Assembly (NCBI RefSeq): GCF_000265385.1
Contig: NC_018013.1
Coordinates: forward strand, 2,259,001-2,323,000
From: Aequorivita sublithincola DSM 14238
Lineage (GTDB): Bacteria; Bacteroidota; Bacteroidia; Flavobacteriales; Flavobacteriaceae
Length of the DNA stretch: 64,000 nt
Direction: 5' to 3'
Shown: one piece after another, positions 6,939 to 26,000 of the stretch
Position numbering within the stretch: the stretch's first letter is position 1
How the letters are laid out: each line of letters starts with the position of its first letter
Position numbers and translations under genes: made by a program
Notes under the pieces: generated by a model
Told to the model about the DNA's origin: nothing
The model's database searches: none
The model's input: only the letters and a program-made list of their open reading frames with translations

Positions 6939-7074
6939 CTTTAAGTAATTATTGAATTTTTAAGAAGTGTAAAGTTAGTTAAAAAAAATTGCAGTAATCA
7001 ATAGCAGCTGGTAGTTATCAGCTTGGAATACATAAATATTTCTTAATGAAAATATTACCAATTGAAACGAAATC

Positions 7075-7082
7075 TATATTTG
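7075..7082 (+). promoter_or_regulatory. Candidate -7 promoter element
   Basis: TATATTTG matches TAnnTTTG 23 bp before the ATG at 7105. No clear -33 TTTG is seen at the usual spacing. Confidence 0.45.
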
Positions 7083-7104
7083 CTCAACTTAAAAACTCCT
7101 TGTT

Positions 7105-7704: not shown

Positions 7705-7720
7705 TTTAAAACTAGGTATT

Positions 7721-8800: not shown

Positions 8801-8830
8801 AACTTGTGGTTTTAGCTTTGACCATTCTTT

Positions 8831-8861
8831 ATTGTTATGGTTTAAAATGGTTGTATCTTTG
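8831..8861 (+). promoter_or_regulatory. Promoter of rimO
   Basis: TATCTTTG at 8854-8861 is a perfect -7 element and ATTG at 8831-8834 lies 19 bp upstream as a -33 element. The rimO ATG at 8884 follows 22 bp later, which also argues against the longer upstream reading frame as the true start. Confidence 0.75.
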
Positions 8862-8883
8862 CACCCCGATAATAAAAATTTAT

Positions 8884-10185
8884 ATGCGTACCAAAACTTT
8901 AAAGAAGAACAAAATTAACGTAGTAACCCTAGGCTGCTCCAAAAACGTTTATGACAGCGAAATATTGATGGGCCAGCTTCGCGCCAGCAATAAAGAAGTT
9001 GTACACGAAGAGGAGGGCAATATCGTAGTGATAAACACTTGCGGTTTTATTGCCAATGCGAAGGAAGAAAGCATCAATACAATTCTTGAGTACGTTCAGA
9101 AGAAAGAAGAAGGCTTGGTGGATAAAGTTTTTGTTACGGGTTGTCTTTCCGAAAGATACAAGCCAGACTTGCAAAAGGAAATCCCGAATGTGGATGAATA
9201 TTTTGGAACGACCGAACTTCCTGGACTTTTGAAAGCTTTGGGAGCAGATTATAAGCACGAATTGATAGGTGAACGCGTAACAACTACCCCTAAAAATTAC
9301 GCGTACTTTAAAATAGCTGAAGGTTGTGACCGTCCGTGTTCATTCTGCGCAATTCCAATTATGCGTGGAAAACACAAAAGCACTCCAATGGAAGATTTGA
9401 TTATTGAAGCCGAAAAGCTTGCTGCAAAAGGTGTGAAAGAATTGATTTTAATAGCACAAGATTTAACATATTACGGACTTGATTTATACAAGAAACGAAA
9501 CCTTGCAGAACTACTTCAAAAATTAGTAAAAGTTGAAGGCATTGAATGGATTCGTTTGCATTACGCTTTCCCAACGGGTTTTCCGATGGATGTATTGGAC
9601 GTTATGCGCAACGAGCCTAAAATTTGTAATTATATAGATATTCCATTGCAACATATTTCTGACCCAATTTTGAAGTCAATGCGCCGCGGAACTACAAAAG
9701 CAAAGACTACCAAATTGCTGGAAGAATTTAGAGCAGCTGTTCCTGACATGACCATCAGGACTACATTAATCGTTGGTTATCCCGGCGAAACTGAAGAAGA
9801 TTTCCAAACCCTAAAACAATGGGTAAAAGATATGCGTTTTGAGCGCTTAGGTTGTTTTACCTATAGTCATGAAGAAAATACGCACGCTTATAATCTTGAA
9901 GACGATGTGCCAGAAAAAATAAAAATGAATCGCGCTAACGAGATTATGGAAATCCAATCTCAAATTTCGTGGGAGCTGAACCAACAGAAAATAGGTAAAG
10001 AATTCCGTGTAGTAATTGACAGAAAGGAAGGTAGCTATTTTATTGGAAGAACTGAATTTGATAGCCCTGACGTTGATAACGAAGTGCTTATAAATGCTGA
10101 AGATAGTTATATGCGTACTGGCGAATTTTTCAATGTGAAAATCACTGCAGCAGAGGATTTTGATTTATATGCTGAAGTGATTTAA
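8884..10185 (+). CDS. rimO: Ribosomal protein S12 methylthiotransferase RimO
   Basis: 433-residue radical-SAM enzyme that adds a methylthio group to the conserved aspartate of ribosomal protein S12. The N-terminal UPF0004 domain carries the auxiliary-cluster cysteines (C18 in LGCSKN, C53 in NTCGF, C87 in TGCLSE). The radical-SAM CxxxCxxC motif is CDRPCSFC (C148, C152, C155), and a TRAM domain follows at the C-terminus. SCFT-type loops and IPLQHISD are typical of RimO rather than MiaB. The frame stays open 26 codons upstream, but I chose the ATG at 8884 because the TATCTTTG promoter falls inside that extension. Confidence 0.95.
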   Translation: MRTKTLKKNKINVVTLGCSKNVYDSEILMGQLRASNKEVVHEEEGNIVVINTCGFIANAKEESINTILEYVQKKEEGLVDKVFVTGCLSERYKPDLQKEIPNVDEYFGTTELPGLLKALGADYKHELIGERVTTTPKNYAYFKIAEGCDRPCSFCAIPIMRGKHKSTPMEDLIIEAEKLAAKGVKELILIAQDLTYYGLDLYKKRNLAELLQKLVKVEGIEWIRLHYAFPTGFPMDVLDVMRNEPKICNYIDIPLQHISDPILKSMRRGTTKAKTTKLLEEFRAAVPDMTIRTTLIVGYPGETEEDFQTLKQWVKDMRFERLGCFTYSHEENTHAYNLEDDVPEKIKMNRANEIMEIQSQISWELNQQKIGKEFRVVIDRKEGSYFIGRTEFDSPDVDNEVLINAEDSYMRTGEFFNVKITAAEDFDLYAEVI

Positions 10186-11904: not shown

Positions 11905-12435
11905 TTACTTCTTCTTGATATTAAACTTCCCTTCAATTACTGCTTTTTTATGATTTTTTGAATATAAGGTTCCTGAGAAAGTACCTTCAGAATGTGTATC
12001 TCCAATGGATGTGATGGTGATCGTAGTTTTGCCTTCCTTCCCGTCTGCGCTTTTATATTGGGTGCGATACACCTCGGTGAGCGGACCGTCTTTTTTTACA
12101 TTTTGTAAAGTTATATTAGCATATGGCACATCATAAGATTTCTCTTCTACAGGATTCTCCAAAAAGTTTAATCTCAGCAAAAGAAGTAAACTGTAATCGG
12201 TTAAACTGGCGGTTGGGAGATTCGGGGAAAATGCTTTTCCCGATATTGTTTTGGCATCTAGTTCGATGTCCCTTCCATCATCTAAGTGAATAATAGCATA
12301 AGATCCATTCCCCGTTTCCGTTTTGGATGTTGACGTATCATCAGTACCATTTTCAGTTTTTGAATTGTTTTTGCACCCTGTTATAATAATTGTGAAGATT
12401 CCTAAAAGCAGTATCAACCGTTTTGTTTTAAACAT
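11905..12435 (-). CDS. Lipoprotein of unknown function
   Basis: 176 residues with lipobox IIITGC (C21) followed by KNNSKTENGTDD, a polar linker. The mature domain contains YAIIHLDDGRDIELD, YANITLQNVKKDG and GTFSGTLYSKNHKKAVIEGKFNIKKK. The closing phrase 'GTFSGTLYSK...I.GKFNIKKK' also appears in altered form in the protein encoded at 14745-15380 (HGSGTIVISPEK), so the two may be distant relatives that bind or coat something at the surface. No enzyme motif is visible. Confidence 0.7.
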   Translation of the reverse strand: MFKTKRLILLLGIFTIIITGCKNNSKTENGTDDTSTSKTETGNGSYAIIHLDDGRDIELDAKTISGKAFSPNLPTASLTDYSLLLLLRLNFLENPVEEKSYDVPYANITLQNVKKDGPLTEVYRTQYKSADGKEGKTTITITSIGDTHSEGTFSGTLYSKNHKKAVIEGKFNIKKK

Positions 12436-12533
12436 AATATTGTGTTTTAAAATTAGTTTAATTAAATCCTGTGAAATTTTAATTCGATAGCTCCAAAATT
12501 TAAAACTTTAAAACTTTAAAAATTCCATTGAAT

Positions 12534-13133
12534 TTACATCCGTTCAATCACGCGTTTTGCCAAGATTTTGGTTTTCTCAATCTTCTCTTGTTTATCCATC
12601 ATATTCTTATTACCGTACATGATTGATAGCGATACATAAAAAATATACCCATCTTCAGCTACGCGCAATTGCCCGCCACCAAGGTCGCTCCAGCTCGCTT
12701 TATCGCCCACGTCAGAAACCTCTTCGGGATTCCATTTTTTATAAATTCCGTTGTTTTGGCCTTCCCAAATCGCATCGATTTGCGAATTAGTGTGTTGACC
12801 ATCTCTAGCAAAATTGAGACTTGCGGAAAAAAGAGTCATTATCCCTTTGTTTATGCTCCAGTCATATGAGCAAATTGTACCATGACTACTCTTTTGTTCT
12901 AGCTCATTTTCTTCAGAAAGTCCAAACACTTCCATAATGTCTTCTTTGTTCATTAGCTCACAGATATCATCTCGTTTGCTGGAACCGGCAAAATTTTCGT
13001 CATCTTCCAAATTGTCTATTTGGTCTTTTAGATTTTTTTCACTTTTTTTATCATTACACGAAACCCCTATAATGAATAAGGAAAAAAACATTAAAAGCGC
13101 TACTGTTTTTTGAAATTTGAATTTGTTTTTCAT
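12534..13133 (-). CDS. Lipoprotein of unknown function, paralogue of the protein at 23378-24115
   Basis: 199 residues. The signal ends at IGVSC (C27). The mature part contains CELMNKEDIMEVFGL, a buried core CSYDWS, the phrase VGDKASWSDLGGGQLRV and a C-terminal helix ending AKRVIERM. The lipoprotein at 23378-24115 has the same order of elements (LTKEEILSGY, YTYSW, GIGDAAVWSYIDSSLIVL, AKKLAQIILDK), so they belong to one unrecognised family. Both lie within the secreted-protein region around the LytTR system. Confidence 0.7.
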   Translation of the reverse strand: MKNKFKFQKTVALLMFFSLFIIGVSCNDKKSEKNLKDQIDNLEDDENFAGSSKRDDICELMNKEDIMEVFGLSEENELEQKSSHGTICSYDWSINKGIMTLFSASLNFARDGQHTNSQIDAIWEGQNNGIYKKWNPEEVSDVGDKASWSDLGGGQLRVAEDGYIFYVSLSIMYGNKNMMDKQEKIEKTKILAKRVIERM

Positions 13134-13284
13134 TGTTGTTGATTTTTAAAAATTGAAAAAATGGTTTTAATGAACTGAGCTATATTCTTCTTTTTAAATG
13201 TTTCACAGAAATTTAAAAGTTTCATCTAATAAACATTTTAATAGCTCAAACTGTTTAATCCTTAAATTTCGAGCAAAACTATCT

Positions 13285-14628
13285 TTATGGTATATCTATA
13301 TCAGCCAACTCTTTTCCACCATAATCTGAAAATAGTTTTGGAGTTTTGTCTAATGTTAAATTAGCCTGTTCCAAATGAGATCTTTTTACATTTTGAAGAC
13401 TCATTCCATATTCAAAACAATTACTAAACACCACATCGTGGATGTTTAGGAATTTTGAATCTCCAAGAAAAATTGCGCCGTTTGGCTTTTCAGTGGTTCT
13501 GCCAGCATTTTTAAAAATTACATGGCCAATTTCATTTAAAGGACTACTTGAATCTATATTTAACTGTTGCCAAAAGCCAGCAACATCGTGTTCGCCACGA
13601 ATGATTATTGGCTCTGCTGCTGTGCCTACCATTACTAAAGAAGCCTTATTGGATAGATGCATCCAGTTTTGGGCTGATATAATAATTTCCACTCCAGGTT
13701 CTACGGTAAGTACACCGTCTTGATATCTAAAGTTATTTTGAAGAAAATAGGGCACATCCAATTTTGACCAAGTGGCATCGCCTTTTAGATTCTCGCGATC
13801 TATGTAGACATAATCGTTTTTGTTTCCAGAAAAACTGTTGCTGCCGTTAAACATATTTAAGCGCGTAATATTTGTTTTCACGGGTATGTTATTTTTAGTG
13901 AAGGTGCTATTCTTCATATTTATGTTATTCACATCTTTCGCTACATCGTCCCTAACGAACATTCCAGTAAATTTGCTATTTGAAACCGTACAGTTTTCCA
14001 TTTTTATACTGCTGGCTTCACCATAGATTGCTAAAGCTGATTTAGAATTACCACCTCCTGCATAATCTATCGTTACATAATTCATTACATTATTTGAGTT
14101 CGGGCTCTCGGTATAAATACCGCGCCAAAACCCTGGCGTTTTTTCTTTCCCGGTTAGAAGAATTGGTTTTGCGGCGGTACCTATCATACTAAAGGAAGAT
14201 TTATCTTTAAATTCCATACCTGCATTTTGTTCAAAAGCAATCACTACGCCTGGCTCGATGGTCAGTTTGCCATCGATTCTAGTAAAACAAGTAATTATAT
14301 AATCTATTGGAGCTTCGGGATTATCTTTTAAAACCGTATTTGGATTGTCTTTAAAATAGTTACAGTCCAATGTTAATGGCGCTGTATTTCCTTTCGGTGA
14401 ATTCGGACTTGTGGCGTCGCCATCTTCTTCTGTGATGGAGGCGCTACTATCTTTTTGTAAATCTGAATTTGCGTCTCCAGCATCATCTGTATTTGAAGCA
14501 TCTACTTGCTCTAAATTTGAGTCATCATTTGATGCTTCACCATCTTTTCCATTGCGACAGCTGGTAAAGGCAATGCCCACCAAAAGTACCAACAATAACA
14601 TTTTAAATTTAAATTGAATCGCTTTCAT
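13285..14628 (-). CDS. Lipoprotein with right-handed parallel beta-helix repeats
   Basis: 447 residues. The signal MKAIQFKFKMLLLVLLVG ends in lipobox AFTSC, followed by a long acidic Ser/Asp/Asn-rich linker (about 25-78). Two similar units follow, each starting with a 'DGxLTxEPGVxI' strand (about 120 and 305) and continuing with SMIGTAAKPILLTG or VMVGTAAEPIIIRG, then 'ADFWxxI'-like turns and NNVMNYVTIDYAGG. This is the pattern of parallel beta-helix surface proteins of Bacteroidota. It probably binds polysaccharide or another surface ligand; no catalytic residues are evident. Confidence 0.75.
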   Translation of the reverse strand: MKAIQFKFKMLLLVLLVGIAFTSCRNGKDGEASNDDSNLEQVDASNTDDAGDANSDLQKDSSASITEEDGDATSPNSPKGNTAPLTLDCNYFKDNPNTVLKDNPEAPIDYIITCFTRIDGKLTIEPGVVIAFEQNAGMEFKDKSSFSMIGTAAKPILLTGKEKTPGFWRGIYTESPNSNNVMNYVTIDYAGGGNSKSALAIYGEASSIKMENCTVSNSKFTGMFVRDDVAKDVNNINMKNSTFTKNNIPVKTNITRLNMFNGSNSFSGNKNDYVYIDRENLKGDATWSKLDVPYFLQNNFRYQDGVLTVEPGVEIIISAQNWMHLSNKASLVMVGTAAEPIIIRGEHDVAGFWQQLNIDSSSPLNEIGHVIFKNAGRTTEKPNGAIFLGDSKFLNIHDVVFSNCFEYGMSLQNVKRSHLEQANLTLDKTPKLFSDYGGKELADIDIP

Positions 14629-14744
14629 ATTTATAATTTTGAGTAATTAAGATTATGATGTAACATATTGTTCTTTTTTAGGTGAGGTTGATAATAAATA
14701 GATTAATAGTGAAATTTTTAACCAGCATTACGCATTTAATAGAA

Positions 14745-15380
14745 CTATTTTTTTTTATAAACCCCCATAGCTTTCTCAGGACTTATTACAATAGTACCTG
14801 AACCGTGGTAAATGTCTTCTTTGTTACCATTCTTTTGGAATTCACCTTCAAAATTGAGTGTAAAGCACGCAGCTCCGCTCATTGGCATGGGCAAGACATA
14901 CTTTAGGTCTGAAAAAGTCATGGTTCCAGAAATACCATTATATTCATCACCTTGATCTTTAGGGCGTATGGATAAAGTGGAAGCACTTTTATCTCCACGT
15001 TTAACGTTGGTAAAAGGCTTTAAGTTTTCATCTACTCTAATTATGCCAAAAATACCAGCTTTGCCACGGTTGTATTTCTTTCCAATAAACATCATAATAG
15101 TACGGTTTCGTCCTCCTTGTTCATCGGTTAAAGATTTTTGGTCGTTATATATGGCACCTCCTTCTTTACTGGGTACAGTCTCCGAAAATTCAATAGTTTC
15201 AGATCCCTTTACCAACGTTATATCAAAGCTATGGGTTGCATCTGTTGTTTTCTCTTTTTTATCAGCTACTACCTTTTCTTTTTCAGCATCAGTTGATTCG
15301 TTCTTTTTATTATTGCAACTTGTAAAGGCAACATTAATAAGTAGCAGAATCAGCAGTATTTTCCCTGTTTGTTTTATCAT
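14745..15380 (-). CDS. Lipoprotein of unknown function
   Basis: 211 residues from the ATG at 15380; the frame opens 12 codons earlier, but MIKQTGKILLILLLINVAFTSC is a proper lipoprotein signal from this ATG. A Lys/Glu-rich linker leads to a globular part with FDITLVKGSETIEFSE, GGRNRTIMMFIGKKYN, a low-complexity-free middle, and a terminal beta hairpin (GSGTIVISPEKAMGVYKKK). The AFTSC lipobox and flanks match those of two neighbours (13285-14628 and 15805-16884), suggesting copy-and-divergence of the export signal. Function unknown. Confidence 0.72.
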   Translation of the reverse strand: MIKQTGKILLILLLINVAFTSCNNKKNESTDAEKEKVVADKKEKTTDATHSFDITLVKGSETIEFSETVPSKEGGAIYNDQKSLTDEQGGRNRTIMMFIGKKYNRGKAGIFGIIRVDENLKPFTNVKRGDKSASTLSIRPKDQGDEYNGISGTMTFSDLKYVLPMPMSGAACFTLNFEGEFQKNGNKEDIYHGSGTIVISPEKAMGVYKKK

Positions 15381-15507
15381 TTTCAAGGTTTTGAATATGT
15401 GTTGAAATATTTCCATTTTTTATTGGTTTTTACAGTTTGTCATATTTTTAAATCTGAAATAATTATCATTACCAATTACAACCTAAGTCATTCTAACTTA
15501 TCCTAAA

Positions 15508-15652: not shown

Positions 15653-15826
15653 TTATTCTTTTACGAGCTTTTGATAATAGGTTTCCTTTGAAGAACTTAA
15701 TTTTAAAATGTATAGTCCCGAATTTGAGTTAGAAATATTGAATTCCTTATTTGATTCTTCAAAAACTTCACTAAAAATTAATTTTCCATCAATATTGTAA
15801 CATTCTATATGCTGCAACCTAAGTCC
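15653..15826 (-). pseudogene. Out-of-frame T9SS type A sorting domain remnant
   Basis: On the minus strand, in a different frame from the LamG gene that stops at 15805, an open stretch reads LQHIECYNIDGKLIFSE, then NISNSNSGLYILKLSSS, then ETYYQKLVKE and a TAA at 15653. That is the second half of a type IX secretion C-terminal sorting domain (xxIxxYNxxGKxxF...GxYxLxL...xxKLVKE). The first half with the usual YPNP motif is missing, so a deletion with frameshift has cut the sorting signal from the LamG protein. The terminator at 15508-15559 follows. Confidence 0.85.
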
Positions 15827-16884
15827 TCATTTGTTAATCGTGTAACTTCGCTCTCGCTGAGAATTCTGTTATAAATACGAATATCGTCTAATATTCCATT
15901 ATAATATTCTGTAACTCCTGGTGTATCATATCCAATCATTAAGGATAATTGATTGGATACTACAGGCTCTATTCCAGCAATATCATTAATCAAAACACCA
16001 TCTACGTATGTTTTTACAGTTCCTGAATCATAGGTTAGCGTTAGATTGTACCATTGATCTAAATCAAATGAAAAATTTCCAACTACATCATTATTAAAAT
16101 ATATATCGCCATCGTCATTGTAGAACAATGAAAATTGTCTTGAGTCCAAAGAAGTCGAATTTCCAGATTTTGCTAATAAACTTGCCCAACCCTTTCCCGT
16201 GTAGTAATATTCAGTTGTATTAAACCAAACAGACATACTCATCTGTGAATTTAAGTTTTCAAGGCTTTGCGAATTCTCGACTTCCATATAATCGTTGATA
16301 CCATCAAACAAATAGGCTTTGTCGGAATTACCATATCTGTCTTCAGTTAGGGTTGCTCCAAATATTGTTGCATTGTTATTGTTGTTACTTTCATCATTTG
16401 CATTTCCGCAGAATGAATAGAATGCAACTAAGCCATCATTTATTTGACTGACGGGACTAGGATTTTGCACCCATTTTTGTATATATCCAGCACCTGGTGC
16501 CGCATCTACAGATATTCTGAGTGTATCGTCAACCCCAAATGTTAGAGAGGATGGATAATAACTTCCATTACTCCCCAGTTCTTCATATCTGTAATTTGTT
16601 TCATCTTGTGCAACGATGTCTTTCCATTTTACATCACCTATTTGAAGCTCAACGCTATTACCAGGTGCTTTATATGTTATTACGCCTGAGTTTCCTGAAA
16701 CATTAATTTTCATTCCGTTGTTCGCAGGTTGATTTCCACCAACTCTGGTCCATGATCCTTGAATCTGGTCAAGATTGAGATTCGAATTAATACTTTGCTC
16801 ATCATCTTTACTACAACTGGTAAATGCGATGCCCACTAAAAGTGCGAATAAAAGGGTTTTGAATTTAATTTGAATTGTTTTCAT
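15805..16884 (-). CDS. LamG-domain lipoprotein, probably truncated at its C-terminus
   Basis: 359 residues. The signal ends in lipobox AFTSC (C24), then SKDDEQ. Residues about 38-145 form an unknown beta-rich domain (GSWTRVGG, VELQIGDVKWKDIV). From about 150 to 350 there is a concanavalin-like LamG domain, opening with DGLVAFYSFCGNANDESN, continuing AYLFDGINDYMEVEN and closing with LDDIRIYNRILSESEV. The reading frame stops at GCSI, just where a T9SS sorting domain continues out of frame. It is preceded by a LytTR-type box and promoter (16983-17054), so it is a predicted member of that regulon. It probably binds glycans at the cell surface. Confidence 0.8.
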   Translation of the reverse strand: MKTIQIKFKTLLFALLVGIAFTSCSKDDEQSINSNLNLDQIQGSWTRVGGNQPANNGMKINVSGNSGVITYKAPGNSVELQIGDVKWKDIVAQDETNYRYEELGSNGSYYPSSLTFGVDDTLRISVDAAPGAGYIQKWVQNPSPVSQINDGLVAFYSFCGNANDESNNNNNATIFGATLTEDRYGNSDKAYLFDGINDYMEVENSQSLENLNSQMSMSVWFNTTEYYYTGKGWASLLAKSGNSTSLDSRQFSLFYNDDGDIYFNNDVVGNFSFDLDQWYNLTLTYDSGTVKTYVDGVLINDIAGIEPVVSNQLSLMIGYDTPGVTEYYNGILDDIRIYNRILSESEVTRLTNEDLGCSI

Positions 16885-16982: not shown

Positions 16983-17054
16983 CAAAAATAAACGGTATAT
17001 AATGCTGTGGCAAGACGCAATTAGTATTTGGTGGGGATGGTTTAGAATTTGGTA
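16983..17054 (-). promoter_or_regulatory. LytTR-type box plus promoter of the LamG lipoprotein gene
   Basis: Half-sites TTAGTATTTGGTG (from 17021) and TTAGAATTTGGTA (from 17042) are direct repeats 21 bp apart. Downstream on the minus strand come a -33 CTTG (17011-17014) and a -7 TATTTTTG (16983-16990), 20 bp apart. The box edge is 31 bp from the -7 box, the same as at the other sites. Confidence 0.75.
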
Positions 17055-17119
17055 TTTTTTTTAAATTCGAATAAAGTTTAGCCCGCACTATATTGTTTAA
17101 AGTTTAGAATAACGAATAT

Positions 17120-17983
17120 TTACAATTTTCCCAAAATATCGTTGATTTCGTAATCACTTAGATCGAAGTACTTAGGATCTGATGATTTTTTGAAAGTGGT
17201 AATATCCGTTATCATACTAGGTTTATCACTTTTCTTATTGAAGTAAATACTGCGAACCATCATTCCTCTTGGAAAGTTTTCATCCATTTTGGAGGGAGTG
17301 TTGGAAGCAGTTTCAGTAGCGAAATCTCTAATCTGTCCGCCAAAAAGATGGTTGCCGCTTAGGTCAATACTAATGTCTTGAGTGACCCACGCATACATTT
17401 TCGTGTCTTCTTTTGGGTTGAGATATATATATTTTCTGCAGTTGTAACCATTGATTTCTTTTTGTTCGTTGGTTCGTTCCCATTGTCCGTTATCGTCGTC
17501 AATATCACCTTGACTTTCTGCTATTTTTTCAGCCATCTTTTGAAAATTAATCATTGGCATTTTCATGGCGGTTTTTTCGTTTTCATTCACCATATATGTG
17601 GCGGCACCTTTATAATCGAAGAGCATTCGGGTTTCGTCTTTATCGCCTTCATTCATAATCATACATTCTCCGGTTTCGCCAAAAACCATCTTTGTAGTGT
17701 TAGTGTCATCCAATTTGCCATTTTTTTTGAAAGATTGCATTTGCATCACCAGCGTTGCTTTCACCGGATTTTCTGGAACGGGGTAACGAGTGTCGTTTTC
17801 ATAAGTAATATCTTCAAGTGCCTTCTTGCCCTTTTCTCTTTCGGGTTCGGCATATTTTTCTTCCATGTCTTTCCTAATTTTATTCTTTATTTTTCGATGA
17901 ATAAAGCCTCGTTGGGCTTCTACCGGAGGAGCGATAAAAAGGAAAATTAGGGTGAATAACGAAATGATATACGTCTTTTTCAT
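17120..17983 (-). CDS. DUF4412 domain secreted protein
   Basis: 287 residues with an SPI signal peptide (MKKTYIISLFTLIFLF, cleavage near VEAQ, residue 24). A charged helix (RKDMEEKYAEPEREKGKK) precedes the DUF4412 domain, with YKGAATYMVNENEKTAMKMP, KEINGYNCRKYIY and MYAWVTQDISIDLSG. The YNCRKY...AWVTxxI pattern is shared by GLPGLI/DUF4412-type proteins of Bacteroidota that are predicted to be periplasmic or outer-membrane associated. Function unknown. A LytTR-type box lies directly upstream (18018-18089), so it is likely co-regulated with the sensor operon next to it. Confidence 0.8.
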   Translation of the reverse strand: MKKTYIISLFTLIFLFIAPPVEAQRGFIHRKIKNKIRKDMEEKYAEPEREKGKKALEDITYENDTRYPVPENPVKATLVMQMQSFKKNGKLDDTNTTKMVFGETGECMIMNEGDKDETRMLFDYKGAATYMVNENEKTAMKMPMINFQKMAEKIAESQGDIDDDNGQWERTNEQKEINGYNCRKYIYLNPKEDTKMYAWVTQDISIDLSGNHLFGGQIRDFATETASNTPSKMDENFPRGMMVRSIYFNKKSDKPSMITDITTFKKSSDPKYFDLSDYEINDILGKL

Positions 17984-18017
17984 GATTATTAAGATTTAAG
18001 GTTTTTACGTGTAATAA

Positions 18018-18089
18018 CAAACCTACACTACATAGGCATACGCGTCAACCACCAATTAGTATTTGGCAGCTATGATTTAGAATTGGGTA
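18018..18089 (-). promoter_or_regulatory. LytTR-type box plus promoter of the DUF4412 gene
   Basis: Half-sites TTAGTATTTGGCA (from 18056) and TTAGAATTGGGTA (from 18077) are 21 bp apart. On the minus strand -33 GTTG (18046-18049) and -7 TAGGTTTG (18018-18025) follow with 20-bp spacing. The box-to-(-7) distance, 31 bp, equals that of the LamG gene. Confidence 0.8.
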
Positions 18090-18207
18090 GTGAAACTGAA
18101 AAGAGGCTATAAGAAAGCTATATCAGAAAATAGCTATGCAAGTGTGAAGCAAGAAACGGTTATGAAACAATAAACCGCTTTTTTATATTGGTTACACTTA
18201 TAAATAT

Positions 18208-18966
18208 TTATTTAAACCGAAGCATGGTTTCCAAAATTTCATTGATTTGTTTAGATTTCTGCCTGGAAACTGGAACTTCAGTATCATCTTGCATAATTAA
18301 ACTGCCACCGTGGTGTTTTAAAATTCCTTGTACAAATTGTGGATTTATCAAGTGGGATTGGTGTACTCTTAAAAAACCGTGATCTTGTAATAGTTCTTCA
18401 ATTTCCTTTAATGTTCTACTGATCAAAATCTTGTTTTTATCTTTACAAAAAATATTGGTGTAATTACTATCAGACTGGCAACGAACAATATTCTCTATTT
18501 CCACAATTTTATAACCTACTCCTGTTGGTAATGCTATTTGCGAACATTCCTTGCCTGAATCTTTCAAGTAACCCTGAAATAATTGCCACTGTTTACCACT
18601 GGTTTTTTTGCGTCTTTTTTCCCAGTTTGAAAGTGCTTTTACAATTTCCTTTTCATTTATAGGTTTCAGTAAATAGTTGATAGCACTATAGCGAAATGCC
18701 TTTATAGCATATTGGTCATAAGCTGTAGTGAATATAACATCAAAATCTATTGGAAGTAGGTTATCCAGCAATGTAAACCCATTCATATTTGGCATTTCAA
18801 TATCTAGGAATAATAAATCTGGCGGGTTTTTTTTAATAAATTCCAATCCGTGCAATGGGTTGGTGAAAATGCCAGTAATGGTATAGTCCGCATGTGTTTT
18901 TTCAATTAAACTTTCTAACACGTTTGTGCAGTGCATTTCGTCGTCAATTATTATCACTTTTGTCAT
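18208..18966 (-). CDS. LytTR-family response regulator
   Basis: 252 residues. The receiver domain (1-120) has acidic pocket D8/D9, phosphoacceptor D55 in FLDIEMPN and a conserved Lys in LLKPINEKE. The LytTR DNA-binding domain (about 145-250) shows GYKIVEIENIVRCQSDSNYT, then KILISRTLKEIEELL and FLRVHQSHLINP. LytTR proteins bind pairs of direct repeats spaced about two helical turns apart. Five such pairs are found around this gene, which are its probable targets. The gene is 3 bp behind the sensor kinase gene, in one operon. Confidence 0.93.
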   Translation of the reverse strand: MTKVIIIDDEMHCTNVLESLIEKTHADYTITGIFTNPLHGLEFIKKNPPDLLFLDIEMPNMNGFTLLDNLLPIDFDVIFTTAYDQYAIKAFRYSAINYLLKPINEKEIVKALSNWEKRRKKTSGKQWQLFQGYLKDSGKECSQIALPTGVGYKIVEIENIVRCQSDSNYTNIFCKDKNKILISRTLKEIEELLQDHGFLRVHQSHLINPQFVQGILKHHGGSLIMQDDTEVPVSRQKSKQINEILETMLRFK

Positions 18967-18969
18967 AAC

Positions 18970-20997
18970 TTAATATTGATAGGTTAGTGTGATTCTGGTT
19001 CCTAAAGCGTTTTCGTCTTCCTCAAGATCCGTTGTTTTTAGATGTATGGAATGATCGTTTAGATGGTTATAAAGTGTCAATCGGTCTTGAACAATGGTGG
19101 AACCCATAGAATTATGTAGTTTTTTCTTTTTGGAACTTTCCTTTCTTCCTATTCCGTTATCTTCAATTATGATCTTTAAATCTTCTGAAGTTTCAAAAAT
19201 AATGGTCAAGTTCTTTTTAAATTTTAAACTAGGATGCAATCCGTGCCAGATGGCGTTTTCTACTATAGGTTGCAATAGCAATGGTGGAATGTTGAATTGA
19301 GAAAGTTCCTCCCTAGAAGAAAAGTATATGTTGTATTCAAATTCCTTTCCCATTCTATTTTTTTCTAATGAGAGATATAATTCTAAAATCTCTAACTCTT
19401 CTTCAACCGTAATTTTTTTAAGATTGCTGTTTTGCAAAATTCCTCGAAGCAAACTGGAAAAATCATCCAGATAAGCAATTGCATCATCCTTTCTAAAGGT
19501 CATCATTAAGTGTTTTATTGCACTCAGACTGTTAAAAATGAAATGAGGGTTCATCTGGGAGCGCAGAGCGATCATCTCAGTTTCTCTAATTTTTTGGTTG
19601 AAATCGTTTTTTATTTTCTGCTCTTTCTCCATTTCTATTTCGGAATAGAGTTGAATAAGTTCATCTGTCTTTTCGTTTATCTTCTCATCAAGTTCACGAT
19701 TCATTGTTTCCTGTAAGGTTTGGTTCTCTCGTAATTGGACAATTAGTCTGTAAGAAGTGTCTTCTTTTTCTTTTTGGAGTAGAAAAACATTATGACCCAA
19801 TGCAAGCGAAAAACAATATACCTCTATTAATAAACCAATCTGAAAAATAATGTTTGGGGCTTCCGTAAAAGCTACTATGCTTTCAGAATCATAATGAAAA
19901 GCAGAAGAACCAACATAGGATGCCAATGCAGCTGCTATAAAAAAGAATGATTGACCTAATATGAAAAAGATTAACAACGGATGTTTCACTTTAAGAAGTA
20001 TCCAAACAAATAAAGCCAAATTCAAGGGAAGAATAATTATTCTAACTATTGAAAATAGTAGTCCATTTAAATATTTATCGTGAAAATAATAGGTGGAAAA
20101 AATATAGGCGATGGCATATAAAAAACAAACATATCCAAAGTATTTGAGCACTCGTGCTAATGACTTATTATACTTTTTTATTGTGAGCAAATGATTAATG
20201 AAAAAGATATAAAACCCTATAAAAGCAAATTGAATCGGCTCATTTAAATTATAAGCGAGTTTTGGAAAATACTGAAAAACATTTCCTATTGGTCCTGCGG
20301 TTCTTCCAAGAATTATCAAGCCATATAAAAGTTGAAAAAATAAATATCCTAAATAATACAAGTAAAGTTTAGCAGACATTCGCAACCAGAATACTACGGT
20401 AAAAAGTATTATGGTTAATAAGGATATGGTATAAAAATAGATAAATGCAATCGTGTTCGTTTGGTTTTTATTGCCACTTCGTGAATACTTTATATAACCT
20501 TTTCCGCTGTATAATGTAGGGTAGCTATTTACTCGAGGTTGGTGATACGTTTTTAATTTTACGTAAATCTGTGATTTTTGAAAAGGTGCTAATGTTAGTT
20601 CTGTGAAAAAATCTGTTGCTTTATCAGTGTCTTTGGACAATGGCACGAAAATTCCATCTTTCCATTTTTTGAAAGCATTTCCATTTTGCTGAAAGATTGT
20701 AGTAACGTGATTTTTACTATACAGATAGTTGTGAAGTGTATCATCGCTACGGTTTTCAATTTGAAACTTTAACCATATAGCGGTTTTTGAAGTAGCGTTA
20801 TAATTTAAATTATATTGTTTCCATCCAGTCTTTGTTTGAATCTCTTCAAAAGTTGTTTTTGGGTCGGTTCGGAGTACTTCAACTTCCTCATTATTTAATA
20901 AAGACAACTTATATGATATAGAATCAGCAACAATCTGACCGTGTAAATGTGTCAAACTGGCTAAAAAACAAAACGTTATTAAGAAGTAGATTCTCAT
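18970..20997 (-). CDS. LytS-type sensor histidine kinase with 7TMR-DISM sensor
   Basis: 675 residues. A signal peptide or first helix (about 1-20) is followed by an extracytoplasmic 7TMR-DISMED2 domain (about 30-165, KTAIWLKFQIENRSDD), seven transmembrane helices (about 185-400), a coiled coil (about 405-470), and a His_kinase domain with the LytS-type motif SQMNPHFIFNSLSAIKH (H485). The ATP-binding part has PLLLQPIVENAIWHG and EDNGIGR. The sensor domain type is often associated with carbohydrate-like ligands. It pairs with the LytTR regulator downstream and has a LytTR-type box upstream (21006-21076), implying autoregulation. Confidence 0.92.
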   Translation of the reverse strand: MRIYFLITFCFLASLTHLHGQIVADSISYKLSLLNNEEVEVLRTDPKTTFEEIQTKTGWKQYNLNYNATSKTAIWLKFQIENRSDDTLHNYLYSKNHVTTIFQQNGNAFKKWKDGIFVPLSKDTDKATDFFTELTLAPFQKSQIYVKLKTYHQPRVNSYPTLYSGKGYIKYSRSGNKNQTNTIAFIYFYTISLLTIILFTVVFWLRMSAKLYLYYLGYLFFQLLYGLIILGRTAGPIGNVFQYFPKLAYNLNEPIQFAFIGFYIFFINHLLTIKKYNKSLARVLKYFGYVCFLYAIAYIFSTYYFHDKYLNGLLFSIVRIIILPLNLALFVWILLKVKHPLLIFFILGQSFFFIAAALASYVGSSAFHYDSESIVAFTEAPNIIFQIGLLIEVYCFSLALGHNVFLLQKEKEDTSYRLIVQLRENQTLQETMNRELDEKINEKTDELIQLYSEIEMEKEQKIKNDFNQKIRETEMIALRSQMNPHFIFNSLSAIKHLMMTFRKDDAIAYLDDFSSLLRGILQNSNLKKITVEEELEILELYLSLEKNRMGKEFEYNIYFSSREELSQFNIPPLLLQPIVENAIWHGLHPSLKFKKNLTIIFETSEDLKIIIEDNGIGRKESSKKKKLHNSMGSTIVQDRLTLYNHLNDHSIHLKTTDLEEDENALGTRITLTYQY

Positions 20998-21005
20998 CAG
21001 TTTAG

Positions 21006-21076
21006 CTAAAATACTATACTATCTGCTTTACACCTGACAATTTTAGCATTTGGTCACTTTTACTTAGTATTCGGTA
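21006..21076 (-). promoter_or_regulatory. LytTR-type box upstream of the sensor kinase gene
   Basis: Half-sites TTAGCATTTGGTC (from 21043) and TTAGTATTCGGTA (from 21064) are 21 bp apart, oriented as at the LamG and DUF4412 genes. A weak -7 (TATTTTAG, 21006-21013) lies 30 bp away. No -33 is recognisable, as might be expected if the regulator is needed for activity. Confidence 0.65.
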
Positions 21077-21090
21077 GTTTTATGGGTCCT

Positions 21091-21162
21091 TACTGAATTC
21101 TAATCCATAGTAGCCAAATTCTAAGTACATATTTCAGGTTATAGATCTTCCCTATAAGTTTG
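21091..21162 (+). promoter_or_regulatory. LytTR-type box plus promoter of the T9SS protein gene
   Basis: Read on the minus strand, half-sites TTAGAATTTGGCT and TTAGAATTCAGTA lie 21 bp apart (21091-21124), so the box has the same geometry relative to this + strand gene as the others have to theirs. A -7 box TAAGTTTG (21155-21162) starts exactly 31 bp past the box. The leader to the ATG at 21294 is about 125 bases. Confidence 0.8.
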
Positions 21163-21293
21163 TCTTCGATATTCATATTGTAATTTTTTCAAAGATTTTA
21201 AAAATGCAATAATGACTTACCGAGGAATTTTTTTCAATTCACTTTTATAACTCCTCAATTAAATAAGTGAACTAAAAATAATTAAAACACAAA

Positions 21294-23003
21294 ATGATGA
21301 AAAATGTAATTACCTTTTTAATGTGCACACTTTGTATCCTTACGGGGATGGCACAAGCAGACCTTAACGGGAACGGGATGATAATTCCCGAAAGAACACC
21401 AGAGCTCCAAGCCCTGTACCTACAATCCAAACAACTGGAAATTAAAGGCACTGCGGCAGAAATAAACGCAAACCGCCTTGCCATAAAAGCCGCTTGGGAG
21501 CAAGTAGATCCCGCAGTGGCCGCGCTGTACAAACCCATTGAAACAACAGGCGTTGGCCCCACAATGGTGGAACGCGAAATAAACCCCGACCAAGCGCAGC
21601 CCATTTCTCGGGCGCCAGAAGATTGGAGCACAGACCTTCTGTTGCGCGAGGGTTATATAGACGGATTGGACATGGACGTTGCCGGCAATGGCGATATCTA
21701 TATTGCCGCCTATGAAAATTATGTGGGAAGTGGATTTGATGATTCAGTCACCTATATATACCGTTCAACCGATGGTGGTAATTCTTTCGTGTTATGGAAA
21801 GAGAATCTGGTAATCTCCTCCGAACTCTCGAAGATTCAACTAATTTCAATGGATGGTAATGGTGTTGATTATCTATTGCTTTATGAGTTATTCGATAACG
21901 GACAATTCACTGTTGCTAGATGGAAAATGTCTAGCGGTGATTTTGACTTTGATCCTGTTGCAAGTTCCATAACCGATTTCAGCGTGGATCGCAATTATAC
22001 ATTAGATACCAGCGCACAAAGGGTTTTTGCGACCTATCAAAAATCAGATCAGATAACGTATTCCGCACGTAGTACTGCGGGTAGCTATGGTTTTGATTGG
22101 GTAGATGAATTTAGGTTTGGAATTGTTGGAGAGCAAATAGACTTTGCTTATGGCTTAAATGGTGGATGTTACACCACATTTATTGGCTTCAATTCCAAAA
22201 ATCTTAAAGCTATGGAGAATTCTAGCTTTAATGATCCCGCATCCTGGAGCTCAGCAGTGAATCTAACAGACAGTAGCATAACAGAAGTAATAAACCCCAC
22301 TATACGAGCGGCTAGATTAGAAATGTCTAACGATAAGGTCATTATTTGGGCTTCACAAAGACCAACTGGATCATCCGAAGGTTACGATGGATTGGGAATG
22401 AAGCGCGTCAATGGTGCTAACTATATCAATTTTAGCGGTTTTCCTGCAGGAGGTTCACAATGGAGCATTGCACAAACCGATAGTTGGGTGCGCAAAGTTA
22501 ATGGTTCAGAGGAGATTCGCTTATCCTATGTTCGCGATAATATACCAAATAATGAGAATGATGTAAATCGATCTCTAACCTTTAATGGGACAGACTTCGA
22601 TCCCTTCGAACCAGTAGCAGATACCTCCGTCAACGTTTTTGAGGGCTTTTCCTCCGCTATTGCGGAAACCAGTGATGGTTTACCTTGTATGGCTTTTGCA
22701 GGTACTTCTGGATCTGATGGCTATAACCTTTACTTTGATGCCAAATCCACTTTGGGTATAGAAGAAAATAGTCTGGATGGATTCACTTTTTATCCTAACC
22801 CAGCCCAGGATATTATAAATATTTCAGCAAAAAGTACTGTTGAAAAGATTGGAATTTACTCTTTGTTGGGACAAGAAGTGATGCAACTTTCTCCAGAACA
22901 GAAAAGTCCATCCCTCAACGTTTCGTCGCTTGCGTCTGGCGTATATGTGATGAAGGTTGAGGTAGATGGCCAAATTGGAACCTATAAAATTATTAAGAAG
23001 TAA
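21294..23003 (+). CDS. T9SS-secreted protein with BNR/sialidase-like propeller
   Basis: 569 residues. A signal peptide (cleavage near GMAQ-A, residue 20) precedes a helical N-terminal region (about 25-110), then a beta-propeller-like part with an Asp-box-type phrase (YRSTDGGNSFVLW, about 161), and a type IX secretion sorting domain at the end (FYPNPAQDIINIS, then SLASGVYVMKVEV and YKIIKK). It should be exported through the outer membrane by T9SS. The first about 130 codons are clearly richer in G+C than the rest, which hints at a mosaic origin. A LytTR-type promoter precedes it. Substrate unknown; sialidase catalytic residues are not identifiable. Confidence 0.82.
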   Translation: MMKNVITFLMCTLCILTGMAQADLNGNGMIIPERTPELQALYLQSKQLEIKGTAAEINANRLAIKAAWEQVDPAVAALYKPIETTGVGPTMVEREINPDQAQPISRAPEDWSTDLLLREGYIDGLDMDVAGNGDIYIAAYENYVGSGFDDSVTYIYRSTDGGNSFVLWKENLVISSELSKIQLISMDGNGVDYLLLYELFDNGQFTVARWKMSSGDFDFDPVASSITDFSVDRNYTLDTSAQRVFATYQKSDQITYSARSTAGSYGFDWVDEFRFGIVGEQIDFAYGLNGGCYTTFIGFNSKNLKAMENSSFNDPASWSSAVNLTDSSITEVINPTIRAARLEMSNDKVIIWASQRPTGSSEGYDGLGMKRVNGANYINFSGFPAGGSQWSIAQTDSWVRKVNGSEEIRLSYVRDNIPNNENDVNRSLTFNGTDFDPFEPVADTSVNVFEGFSSAIAETSDGLPCMAFAGTSGSDGYNLYFDAKSTLGIEENSLDGFTFYPNPAQDIINISAKSTVEKIGIYSLLGQEVMQLSPEQKSPSLNVSSLASGVYVMKVEVDGQIGTYKIIKK

Positions 23004-23032
23004 AAAAGCGATTGTTTGATTAGTAAAGAAAT

Positions 23033-23062
23033 GGAGCTGCTTAACTGCGGCTCTTTTCTTTT
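23033..23062 (+). terminator. Terminator of the T9SS protein gene
   Basis: GAGCTGC and GCGGCTC pair (one U-G) around TTAACT and are followed by TTTTCTTTTTT. It ends just before the next LytTR-type box. Confidence 0.8.
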
Positions 23063-23063
23063 T

Positions 23064-23135
23064 TACTGAATTCTAATCCATAACCTCCAAATGCTAAGTA
23101 GGGGTTTCGGATTAGCTTTCTTCCTTATAAGTTTG
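23064..23135 (+). promoter_or_regulatory. Fifth LytTR-type box plus promoter
   Basis: Read on the minus strand, half-sites TTAGCATTTGGAG and TTAGAATTCAGTA lie 21 bp apart (23064-23097). A -7 box TAAGTTTG (23128-23135) starts 31 bp past the box, as at the preceding gene. About three quarters of the positions match the copy at 21091-21162, including the -7 box. It is positioned to drive the lipoprotein gene at 23378, with a remnant of a T9SS tail inside the leader. Confidence 0.75.
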
Positions 23136-23377: not shown

Positions 23378-24115
23378 ATGCATCAATCAAAAAAACTGTT
23401 CCTATTTAATTTCTTGTTTATATGTGTTACAATCGCGGCAATTACAGGTTGTAATGAGAATAAGAAAGGCTCAAACAATCTGAACTCTACTGAGTCTATT
23501 GTATCATCTGACAATACAGCCTGCTTTGAAAAATACAAAACAGATTTAATGAGCATGCTCACAAAAGAAGAGATTCTATCAGGCTATAAAGGCGATATGG
23601 CAGGCGCCGAACTAAAGTCAGATTTAAGGGAAAAATATAGCAGTTTTTCTTCTTATACTTATTCTTGGCTAGGCGATCCAGATCGTGCGGAACGGATTAT
23701 GGCCAGCGGAAGAGATTTCGGGCCTATGAATTATAGAATTGGCGTAGGATATTTGGATTTTTACAAAGAAGGGACCAAATTCATAATTAAGAACTTTACA
23801 AGTACCTATAATCTTACAGATGCGAAAAAAGCCGCAGCTAAGGAAGCAATAAATAAAGAGCTTGAAAAGCAAGGTGTTGATACTAAAACAAAAAAAACAT
23901 CCAAAGCAATCACAAATTCCATAATTCCAGATCTTAAATTTACACCTGTAGAAGGTATTGGTGACGCTGCTGTTTGGAGTTATATAGACAGTAGCTTGAT
24001 TGTTCTAAAAGGAAGAACGAAATTCAGAGTAATAGTAGATGTTAGCGATAACCATGAAGAAGATGTGGCCTTGGCCAAAAAATTAGCTCAGATAATTTTG
24101 GATAAATGTGAATAA
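23378..24115 (+). CDS. Lipoprotein of unknown function, paralogue of the protein at 12534-13133
   Basis: 245 residues from the ATG at 23378; an upstream in-frame start adds a lysine-rich stretch that would spoil the signal. The signal MHQSKKLFLFNFLFICVTIAAITGC ends in lipobox AITGC (C25). The mature domain carries CFEKYKTDLMSMLTKEEIL, a charged central helix (KKAAAKEAINKELEK), the phrase GIGDAAVWSYIDSSLIVL and the end VALAKKLAQIILDKC. The same elements occur in the paralogue. The gene sits behind a LytTR-type promoter (23064-23135), so regulation by the neighbouring two-component system is plausible. Confidence 0.75.
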   Translation: MHQSKKLFLFNFLFICVTIAAITGCNENKKGSNNLNSTESIVSSDNTACFEKYKTDLMSMLTKEEILSGYKGDMAGAELKSDLREKYSSFSSYTYSWLGDPDRAERIMASGRDFGPMNYRIGVGYLDFYKEGTKFIIKNFTSTYNLTDAKKAAAKEAINKELEKQGVDTKTKKTSKAITNSIIPDLKFTPVEGIGDAAVWSYIDSSLIVLKGRTKFRVIVDVSDNHEEDVALAKKLAQIILDKCE

Positions 24116-24373: not shown

Positions 24374-24679
24374 ATGAAAAATTCGCAGAGATTCAGATTT
24401 CCAAAAACCGTTCTGTTCGGTATAACTGCGCTGTACATCGTATTAATGCTCGCTACTTATTTTCTATATTATAAAGAACCTGTAATAATCTGCGCCCAAA
24501 GAATGTTGGTAGGCCAGTCTATAGCCTTGGTTTTTCAAGTAGTGTTGAATTACGTTAACTATCATTCCAAACAAAAAATCGTTATTCTTGCCACGCTGTT
24601 CGTTAGTACCATGCTTCTTATGGGAGCGCTTTCTGCCTTTTTCAATCTGGGATTAATGTGCGAATTCTATGGATTTTAA
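24374..24679 (+). CDS. Small integral membrane protein of unknown function
   Basis: 101 residues with three hydrophobic helices: TVLFGITALYIVLMLATYFLY (about 12-33), a region near SIALVFQVVLNYV (about 49-62) and IVILATLFVSTMLLMGALSAF (about 69-89). The N-terminus is basic, so it is probably cytoplasmic. The segment after the first helix (YKEPVIICAQRM) carries a cysteine that may be conserved. It is 64 bp ahead of the lipoprotein gene at 24744 and may be co-transcribed. I recognise no family. Confidence 0.65.
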   Translation: MKNSQRFRFPKTVLFGITALYIVLMLATYFLYYKEPVIICAQRMLVGQSIALVFQVVLNYVNYHSKQKIVILATLFVSTMLLMGALSAFFNLGLMCEFYGF

Positions 24680-24743: not shown

Positions 24744-26000
24744 ATGACTTTTTTAAAATTAATCTTTACAATTTTTCTTAGTGTAGTAATACTTGTTTCC
24801 TGCAAAACTGAAACAAAAAAGAAAGCTATAACTTCTGAAATTGAAACAACGGCAGAAACTGTCACTTTATTAGAAAATCCAACTTCTGGCAATAGTGCTC
24901 TACCAAGACTTTTTGGAACGGAGAATCAACTTTTTATGTCTTGGGTTGAAACGAAAGATTCAATTTCGGTATTGTATTTTTCAACATTTGAAGAAGGCAA
25001 ATGGACAAAGCCTTACGAAGTAAATTCTGGAAGTGATTGGTTTATCAATTGGGCAGATTTCCCCGCCATTGCAGAAAATAATGGAAATATTATAATCACT
25101 TACCTACAAAAATCCGCCAACGGGAAATATACCTATGATGCTAAAATCAATCTTTTTTCTGCTGAAACACAGACTTGGAAAAAGAATATTCTTTTGCACA
25201 ACGATGGAACAGCTAGTGAACACGGCTTTGTTTCAATCGTGCCGCAAGGAAAATCTTCTTTTTATGCAATCTGGCTCGATGGTAGAAACACAAAAGCTGA
25301 AGCAGGCGGCCATGGCAATCACGGGGCAGGAGCAATGTCGCTTCGTGGACGTTTGGTGCATGCAGATGGCACAATGCAGCCTGATCTAGAACTGGATAAC
25401 CGTGTTTGTGATTGCTGCCAAACAGCGATGACTTCCATAGAAAACGCACCATTGCTTGTGTACAGAAACCGAACAGGTTCCGAGGTAAGGGATATTTCTC
25501 GCATCGGACTTTTCGATGATTCATTTTCAGAATCGCAACCAATTTTTAATGATAACTGGGAAATTCCAGGTTGTCCAGTTAATGGTCCTTCCATTGCTTC
25601 CTATAAAAATAATGCGGTGGTTGCTTGGTTTACCGCTGTAAACGATAACCCTAAAGTGCAGCTTGCGTTTTCAAAAGATAAAGGCAAAACGTTTGCAGCT
25701 CCAATTCAAGTAAATACCTACAAAACTCTCGGCAGAGTAGATGTTGTAATGATTTCCGAAAATACCGCTATTGTAAGTTGGATGGAAAATTTAGGGGAAG
25801 ATACCCTAATACAGGTAATGCGCATTTCCGCAGATGGCACCGAAGGGTTTCCTGTTACTATTTCAAAAACGAGTTTTGAACGTGCCAGTGGTTTTCCGCA
25901 GTTGGAGATTGCGGGTAATACACTTTATGCCGCTTGGACAATGGTTGACGGCAAGAAAAAATCTATTGAAACTGCGTCCATTTCAATTCCAAATTTATGA
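24744..26000 (+). CDS. Sialidase-like (BNR/Asp-box) lipoprotein
   Basis: 418 residues. The signal MTFLKLIFTIFLSVVILVSC gives a lipoprotein with C20. The rest is a six-bladed propeller-like fold with repeated short strands (LFMSWVETKDSISVLYFS, FYAIWLDGRNTK, VVAWFTAVNDNPKVQLAFSKDKGKTF) of which the last is an Asp-box (SxDxGxTF). A VCDCC cluster near residue 222 is unusual and could bind metal or form disulfides. Similar 'exo-alpha-sialidase' annotations in Flavobacteria rest on fold only, and real sialidase activity is not supported by visible residues. Located at the outer or inner membrane, facing the periplasm or medium. Confidence 0.75.
   Translation: MTFLKLIFTIFLSVVILVSCKTETKKKAITSEIETTAETVTLLENPTSGNSALPRLFGTENQLFMSWVETKDSISVLYFSTFEEGKWTKPYEVNSGSDWFINWADFPAIAENNGNIIITYLQKSANGKYTYDAKINLFSAETQTWKKNILLHNDGTASEHGFVSIVPQGKSSFYAIWLDGRNTKAEAGGHGNHGAGAMSLRGRLVHADGTMQPDLELDNRVCDCCQTAMTSIENAPLLVYRNRTGSEVRDISRIGLFDDSFSESQPIFNDNWEIPGCPVNGPSIASYKNNAVVAWFTAVNDNPKVQLAFSKDKGKTFAAPIQVNTYKTLGRVDVVMISENTAIVSWMENLGEDTLIQVMRISADGTEGFPVTISKTSFERASGFPQLEIAGNTLYAAWTMVDGKKKSIETASISIPNL

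Follow-up and report, generated by a model that had tools for sequence, protein, structure and literature searches.

Candidate operators of a LytTR two-component system in Aequorivita sublithincola: direct repeats in a fixed promoter register

Introduction

The genome of Aequorivita sublithincola DSM 14238 (contig NC_018013.1) encodes, within the 64,000-nt stretch from position 2,259,001 to 2,323,000 that we analysed here (the window), a sensor histidine kinase (HK) next to a response regulator with a LytTR domain. Five copies of a direct-repeat box surround this HK-LytTR pair, each upstream of a gene. What are these boxes for, and which protein reads them? An earlier note on this DNA had taken them for the regulon of the neighbouring LytTR protein. 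We reach the same reading with a probability of about 0.87: the boxes most likely serve as operators for the LytTR response regulator whose gene lies in their midst, and this regulator would activate its own operon and a set of genes for surface proteins.

Sigma-A promoters of Bacteroidota carry a TTG near -33 as their upstream element. In Flavobacterium psychrophilum, the -7 element has been mapped at -12 to -5, with the consensus TAnnTTTG (PMC9723704, available in part). Established LytTR sites consist of two repeats of 9-11 nt that lie 11-13 nt apart and share no common consensus, according to the available part of PMC4847170.

Results and discussion

Five boxes share one geometry

We scanned the window with TTAGNATTYGG-N10-TTAGNATTYGG, allowing up to three mismatches, and used 100 dinucleotide shuffles as the background. 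Exactly five matches were found against a shuffle mean of 0.03, and no shuffle reached five, which rules out chance as their origin. Each box is a 32-bp core formed by two 11-bp half-sites in direct repeat that read CCRAATWCTAA in the direction of the gene, and in all five the half-sites start 21 bp, or about two helical turns, apart. The boxes lie upstream of five transcription units around the HK-LytTR pair and are oriented identically to the gene downstream. Read in that direction, TAnnTTTG begins at +31 past the box in four cases, whereas box 3, at the kinase promoter, has TATTTTAG at +30. The strands below give the gene direction, opposite to the strand of TTAGNATTYGG, which is plus for boxes 1 to 3 and minus for boxes 4 and 5.

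17021 to 17052, minus strand: LytTR box 1, no mismatch, upstream of the LamG lipoprotein gene
16983 to 16990, minus strand: -7 element TATTTTTG, at +31 of box 1
18056 to 18087, minus strand: LytTR box 2, one mismatch, upstream of the gene for a secreted 287-aa protein
18018 to 18025, minus strand: -7 element TAGGTTTG, at +31 of box 2
21043 to 21074, minus strand: LytTR box 3, no mismatch, upstream of the kinase-LytTR operon, predicted to be autoregulatory
21006 to 21013, minus strand: degenerate -7 element TATTTTAG, at +30 of box 3
21093 to 21124, plus strand: LytTR box 4, one mismatch, upstream of the gene for a type IX secretion system (T9SS) protein; divergent from box 3, 50 bp start to start
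21155 to 21162, plus strand: -7 element TAAGTTTG, at +31 of box 4
23066 to 23097, plus strand: LytTR box 5, one mismatch, upstream of a lipoprotein gene
23128 to 23135, plus strand: -7 element TAAGTTTG, at +31 of box 5

The earlier note had thus described the number of boxes, their 21-bp spacing, their uniform orientation and the position of the -7 element (31 bp in four boxes, a weak one at 30 bp before the kinase) as we find them. Its box length of 34 bp shrinks to a 32-bp core, the starts it gave as 21091 and 23064 move to 21093 and 23066, and its half-site formula TTAGNATTYGG is exact in two boxes and off by one mismatch in three.

The promoter register is conserved

To describe the register beyond the window, we took 17 regions picked by their LytTR gene alone, which contain 55 boxes, 51 of them unique (upstream of a kinase gene in 15 cases and of another gene in 36). 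An exact TAnnTTTG begins at +31 in 31 of the 36 non-kinase boxes and at +30 in one more; elsewhere between offsets 6 and 75 there is none. Two further boxes have a -7 with one mismatch at +31, and two low-scoring ones (L080 and L081) have none. TT(G/T) begins at +8 in 34 of the 36. The non-kinase boxes are followed by both parts of a sigma-A promoter, the TAnnTTTG -7 and a TT(G/T) that fits the -33 element, with the near half-site ending 7 bp before TT(G/T) and 30 bp before the -7 box. The kinase promoters do not show this combination: across the 17 genomes, all 15 unique ones carry a -7 with one mismatch, at +30 in 10 and at +31 in 5, and none has an exact one. The weak -7 of the kinase is a conserved deviation.

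If the -7 element occupies -12 to -5 as in F. psychrophilum, the box spans about -74 to -43 and lies just upstream of the -33 element. So constant a register, with the near half-site at about -43, points to an activator that touches RNA polymerase directly. The LytTR protein might instead repress from the boxes, or both activate and repress, and members of the family can repress, as AgrA does at bsaA (PMC4227749, available in part). We consider this unlikely: the boxes lie upstream of the apparent -33/-7 promoter without overlapping it, and the degenerate kinase promoter fits activation, as in LytTR systems whose repeats lie just upstream of -35 (PMC6193735, available in part).

The kinase box and its divergent partner also keep their distance: 16 of the 17 genomes have 49-53 bp between the two starts, and the remaining one has 61 bp. 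The gene beyond this divergent pair (21043-21124 in the window) swaps between species and may encode a T9SS protein, a lipoprotein, a membrane protein or others, as though the promoter stayed in place and received new target genes.

Box and regulator are inherited together in the genus

We searched 28 Aequorivita genomes for the composite of box and -7 element at up to two mismatches. Sixteen genomes besides our own encode a LytTR orthologue at 73-87% identity (17 of 28 in all), and the next best homologue reaches 43%. The box occurs in the same 17 of 17 genomes and in 0 of the 11 that lack the regulator (Fisher test, 4.7e-8, not corrected for kinship), with 51 matches in the 28 genomes versus 5 for the reversed pattern. 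In all 17 orthologous loci a kinase homologue adjoins the LytTR gene and a box precedes the kinase. Boxes unlinked to the regulator gene, on another contig or more than 100 kb away, are present in 9 of the 17 genomes versus 0 of the 11 (p 0.0035), or in 8 of the 17 if the weak G007 site is left out (p 0.0078). On an rpoB tree, which covers 27 of the 28 genomes (the draft G006 gave no rpoB match), regulator presence must have changed 6 times, 5 of them on well-supported branches, and the box follows the regulator in all 5 independent pairs.

These distributions bear on two rival explanations. In the first, the boxes would be leftovers of promoter or gene duplication in a tandem cluster and would bind nothing; boxes 4 and 5 indeed share flanks beyond the box (by eye), and several of the targets are paralogous lipoproteins. 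Yet genomes without the regulator also lack the boxes, and the half-sites are conserved while much of the spacer varies, also in genera whose LytTR protein is 30-40% identical and whose targets are others. This explanation is strongly disfavoured, and we give it hardly any credence. In the second, another regulator, such as a paralogous LytTR protein, would bind the boxes, the neighbouring LytTR gene being incidental. Candidates abound, since each Aequorivita genome has 3 to 8 LytTR homologues (E<=1e-15, orthologue counted where present), and one paralogous pair carries a box resembling these, which makes cross-talk possible. At three mismatches, 4 of the 11 genomes without the orthologue show one match each, all before the kinase of that paralogous pair. 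Paralogues are present in all 11, yet no box is found there at up to two mismatches, and the matches found across the family (below) sit beside HK-LytTR pairs. We therefore regard another reader as very improbable and retain the neighbouring LytTR protein as the predicted one.

In one of the regulator-bearing genomes (G001), the alignment of the kinase (L083:8008-9906) to the window kinase begins only at residue 137 of the G001 protein; the outer sensor part is a different one, and the LytTR protein and the boxes are kept. This suggests a changed signal.

Putative targets in the own genome and across genomes

The own genome is a single contig of 3.52 Mb. Scanned at up to three mismatches, it yields 17 places, and the reversed control 5 (3+2). 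Besides the five window boxes, these comprise one further promoter in the same register and 11 others. The sixth site, at 2818428 and about 0.5 Mb from the window, precedes a gene for a 201-aa outer-membrane beta-barrel protein and has TAGGTTTG at +31, although the -7 element played no part in the search. The 11 remaining places, by eye mostly repeats of the TTGGAATTTGG or TTAGTATTCAG type, were set aside and are probably due to chance. A random spread of half-site pairs with no link to TAnnTTTG boxes, named beforehand as the outcome that would speak against a regulon, was not what we found in the own genome, the genus or the family.

For a survey of targets, we grouped the first genes behind 66 boxes in 26 regions, some of them picked for a box, into clusters; a gene was found for 63. 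Counted by genomes, the clusters are the kinase (17), lipoproteins of about 400 aa (13), the 287-aa secreted protein (8), the beta-barrel protein (6), a 100-aa membrane protein (4), the T9SS protein (3), LamG-type proteins (2) and six singles. In G008 the first open reading frame (ORF) starts 586 bp behind the box and is probably not a target. The 8 genomes with a homologue of the 287-aa protein behind a box are among the 17 with the regulator.

Gene presence was determined in 17 of the 28 genus genomes, the own one included (9 with the regulator, 8 without). The gene for the 287-aa protein is present in 4 of the 9 versus 0 of the 8, with a box in all 4. For the beta-barrel cluster, the scan covered the loci of 30 of the 32 matched genes; a box is present in 4 of the 7 regulator-bearing genomes with the gene and in none of the 7 regulator-free ones with it.

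The register reaches beyond the genus

Orthologues at 70-75% identity occur in Psychroflexus gondwanensis and in a metagenome-assembled genome labelled Algicola, with boxes before both the kinase and the divergent gene. In P. gondwanensis, the divergent box pair, the secreted-protein gene and the kinase start are present twice (L111:2350-3809 and 6364-9415); in one copy the kinase-like ORF is just 152 aa long, and the listed kinase ORF of the other begins late.

The paralogous Aequorivita kinase-LytTR pair (L103-L107, L298 and L299), whose LytTR protein is 34-36% identical, carries two boxes in all 7 loci: a 21-bp repeat of the TCAAATTCTAA type directly before the kinase, followed by a one-mismatch -7 at +31, and a weaker one immediately downstream of the LytTR gene. 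Five of these loci were picked because of the box; two (G002 and G004) were not. Across 75 more distant LytTR loci (about 40% identity), half-site pairs occur 12 times at 21 bp, and any other spacing in the 11-35 range has 0-5 of them. When a -7 at +30 to +32 is required, 8 pairs remain at 21 bp versus 3 for the other 24 spacings together.

A search that used no LytTR information gave the same association. We looked for exact matches to AATNCTMA-N13-AATNCTMA-N30-TANNTTTG in 397 genomes of the same family and found the own genome's five sites and 14 single matches in 14 other genomes. An HK-LytTR pair lies within 10 kb of 12 of these 14, three of the twelve being near-identical loci. Chance would place a match near a LytTR gene in 7.4% of cases even at 13 LytTR genes per 3.5-Mb genome, which gives a P of about 2e-12 if the matches are independent. 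Among the matches listed for the 397 genomes, none belongs to the reversed pattern; a pattern with a 20-bp period matched nowhere in them, nor did one with the -7 three bases nearer, the reversed control of which gave one match. With 17 of 17 versus 0 of 11 in the genus and 12 of 14 in the family, the earlier reading of the boxes as a LytTR regulon gains support. One of the two exceptions (G478) lies inside a long ORF on the opposite strand and is probably chance; the other (G725) lies before a gene for a 1539-aa lipoprotein.

Loosening the search to one mismatch in a sample of 395 genomes from the phylum gave 13 matches outside the own genome versus 5 for the reversed control, and only 3 of the 13 (G390, G086 and G386) lie by an HK-LytTR pair. 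The other ten have no LytTR gene within their 3-kb loci, and one of them (L195) has a kinase-like match only. Two of these ten, viewed in 14-20 kb, showed nothing (G127) or a partial LytTR match at 28%, 8 kb off and without a kinase (G312). This looser search is mostly noise.

Several observations weigh against the boxes being operators of this regulator. The background is not nil, as 2 of the 5 reversed-pattern matches at up to two mismatches fall in genomes without the regulator, and at three mismatches the reversed control gives 21 matches in 59 genomes. Linkage of the kinase box to the regulator gene accounts for part of the 17 of 17; two of the nine genomes with unlinked boxes (G001 and G007) rest on two-mismatch matches, and seven are draft assemblies. 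With 5 independent pairs, the lowest p that a sign test can reach is 0.0625, short of 0.05. Targets also vary between genomes: in 3 of the 7 regulator-bearing genomes with the beta-barrel gene, its cluster has no box. Farther out, the Aequorivita half-site gives only 12 pairs at 21 bp, in 10 of the 75 distant loci, 8 of them with a -7, and in a weak test on up to 350 bp upstream of these 75 operons, 21 was the best spacing in 7 loci and 30 likewise in 7. Finally, 382 of the 397 family genomes have no exact match, among them an Aequorivita genome with the regulator (G017); the sensitivity of this search is low.

In other Flavobacteriaceae (L285, L288, L292, L294, L295, L296 and L207), the half-site often reads ACGAATTCTAA or ACGAATACTAA, and the box mostly stands before a gene for a secreted or lipoprotein-like product, a few kb from an HK-LytTR pair.

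Relation to known LytTR systems

The closest described arrangement is that of the LytTR regulatory systems (LRS). In the available part of PMC6193735, HdrRM, BrsRM and LRS-like operons of Bacteroides have direct repeats of 9-11 bp, 11-13 bp apart; the LRS repeats are autoregulatory and precede the -35/-33 of the operon that encodes the system by about 10 bp, and those predicted in silico in Bacteroides thetaiotaomicron end in TATCTTTG, 19 bp from the upstream element. Both these systems and ours combine a LytTR DNA-binding domain with direct repeats just upstream of a promoter. By contrast, an LRS pairs the LytTR regulator with a membrane protein and has no kinase, whereas here a kinase is encoded next to a receiver-domain protein; because receiver domain and histidine kinase are both present, our pair is not an LRS, where a membrane inhibitor takes the place of the kinase. 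The Bacteroides repeats as delineated there have a period of 22 and other letters (TCCGGTATTCA), versus a period of 21 here, and the -7 lies 34 bp past them rather than 30. The Bacteroides example gives, in the same available text, no target past its own operon; here there are several putative target genes. Within Aequorivita, the paralogous pair shares the 21-bp repeat before the kinase and differs in its half-site letters.

VirR is reportedly counted among the LytTR response regulators with paired repeats. AgrA, YpdB and BtsR likewise are LytTR response regulators with repeats about two turns apart at target promoters (PMC4847170 and PMC4227749, each available in part), and YpdB and BtsR also resemble our system in their LytS-type His_kinase partner (BtsS, PMC10653868, available in part). 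The boxes described here agree with this two-component class in having two 9-11-nt repeats about two helical turns apart at target promoters. They differ from those of AgrA, VirR, YpdB and BtsR, as far as these are described in the available texts, in half-site letters and promoter type; the sensor families differ as well (7TMR-DISM here), as do the targets, which here are surface lipoproteins and T9SS cargo.

We found no defined HK-LytTR regulon in Flavobacteria in the literature covered, outside of which most subscription papers lie, and the main text of a paper on temperature stress in Aequorivita (PMC10663628) contains neither 'LytT' nor 'LytR'. The claim that such a target set had not been described in Flavobacteria thus stands within that coverage, while the arrangement of direct repeats by a promoter was already known (PMC6193735, available in part). 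What is new is a well-supported set of predicted LytTR operators with a rigid register that reaches beyond the genus; the type of arrangement has been described before.

Proposed mechanism and meaning

From the sequence, geometry, conservation and co-inheritance of the boxes we infer a chain from signal to transcription. The kinase, with its outer sensor domain and 7TMR-DISM membrane part, would phosphorylate the LytTR protein, which in this form would bind the half-site pair. Bound immediately before the -33 element, at a constant distance, the protein would most likely activate sigma-A polymerase. Its putative targets in the window are genes for secreted lipoproteins and T9SS cargo, joined by a gene outside it for an outer-membrane beta-barrel protein. 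The own operon would also be activated, probably more weakly given its degenerate -7.

We lean slightly towards a broader interpretation as well, in which NCRAATNCTMA-N10-NCRAATNCTMA-N30-TAnnTTTG would be the common operator code of a large HK-LytTR branch in Flavobacteriaceae and the wider Bacteroidota, read in one sigma-A register. Against it stands that the exact form occurs in only 15 of the 397 family genomes and is missing even in G017, which has the regulator. Were it true, the regulons of many uncharacterised systems could be read from sequence, with half-site letters drifting along with the regulator; outside the genus, seven of eight genomes of the same family have 5 to 13 LytTR homologues, and the eighth has none. 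A rigid operator that can be searched for turns the question of an orphan sensor's target genes into a pattern search, and the output indicated here is surface lipoproteins, T9SS cargo and outer-membrane proteins.

Genes at the locus

The genes of the predicted regulon in the window are the following.

15805 to 16884, minus strand: LamG (Laminin_G_3) lipoprotein, 359 aa, PF13385 (E 1e-22), target behind box 1
17120 to 17983, minus strand: secreted 287-aa protein, weakly GLPGLI-like, target behind box 2
18208 to 18966, minus strand: LytTR response regulator, 252 aa, receiver PF00072 (E 2e-20) and LytTR PF04397 (E 3.7e-19), both above cut-off
18970 to 20997, minus strand: sensor histidine kinase, 675 aa, with 7TMR-DISMED2, 7TMR-DISM_7TM and His_kinase PF06580
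21294 to 23003, plus strand: 569-aa secreted protein with a T9SS type A sorting domain (domain match), target behind box 4
23378 to 24115, plus strand: 245-aa lipoprotein, no family above cut-off, target behind box 5

By Pfam, the response regulator consists of a receiver domain followed by the LytTR domain, and its partner with His_kinase PF06580 adjoins it. Among the 60 matches listed by a profile search of the PDB, there were receiver-domain structures. The sensor, which had been called LytS-like, earns that name for its kinase class (PF06580) and not for its sensor domain: Pfam finds no 5TM LytS domain (5TM-5TMR_LYT) in it and instead 7TMR-DISMED2 and 7TMR-DISM_7TM. Among the labels first given to the other genes, LamG (PF13385), the T9SS tail and LytTR plus receiver agree with the domain matches, and DUF4412 does not. 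For the gene at 17120-17983 that label is unsupported, as the 287-aa protein has no Pfam match up to E 0.1, and NCBIfam gives only a GLPGLI match below threshold. A box-associated protein of another genus (L286) does carry DUF4412 (PF14371); BLASTP found no relation between it and the 287-aa protein of the window, and a weak relation was seen for Psychroflexus (E 3e-4).

The gene for the 245-aa lipoprotein is possibly co-transcribed with those at 24374-24679 and 24744-26000. At 11905-15416, further lipoprotein-like genes lie beside the LamG gene and have no clear box, the best position weight matrix score being 12.2 versus at least 33 for the five boxes; box 1 may drive these genes as well, or they may be transcribed independently.

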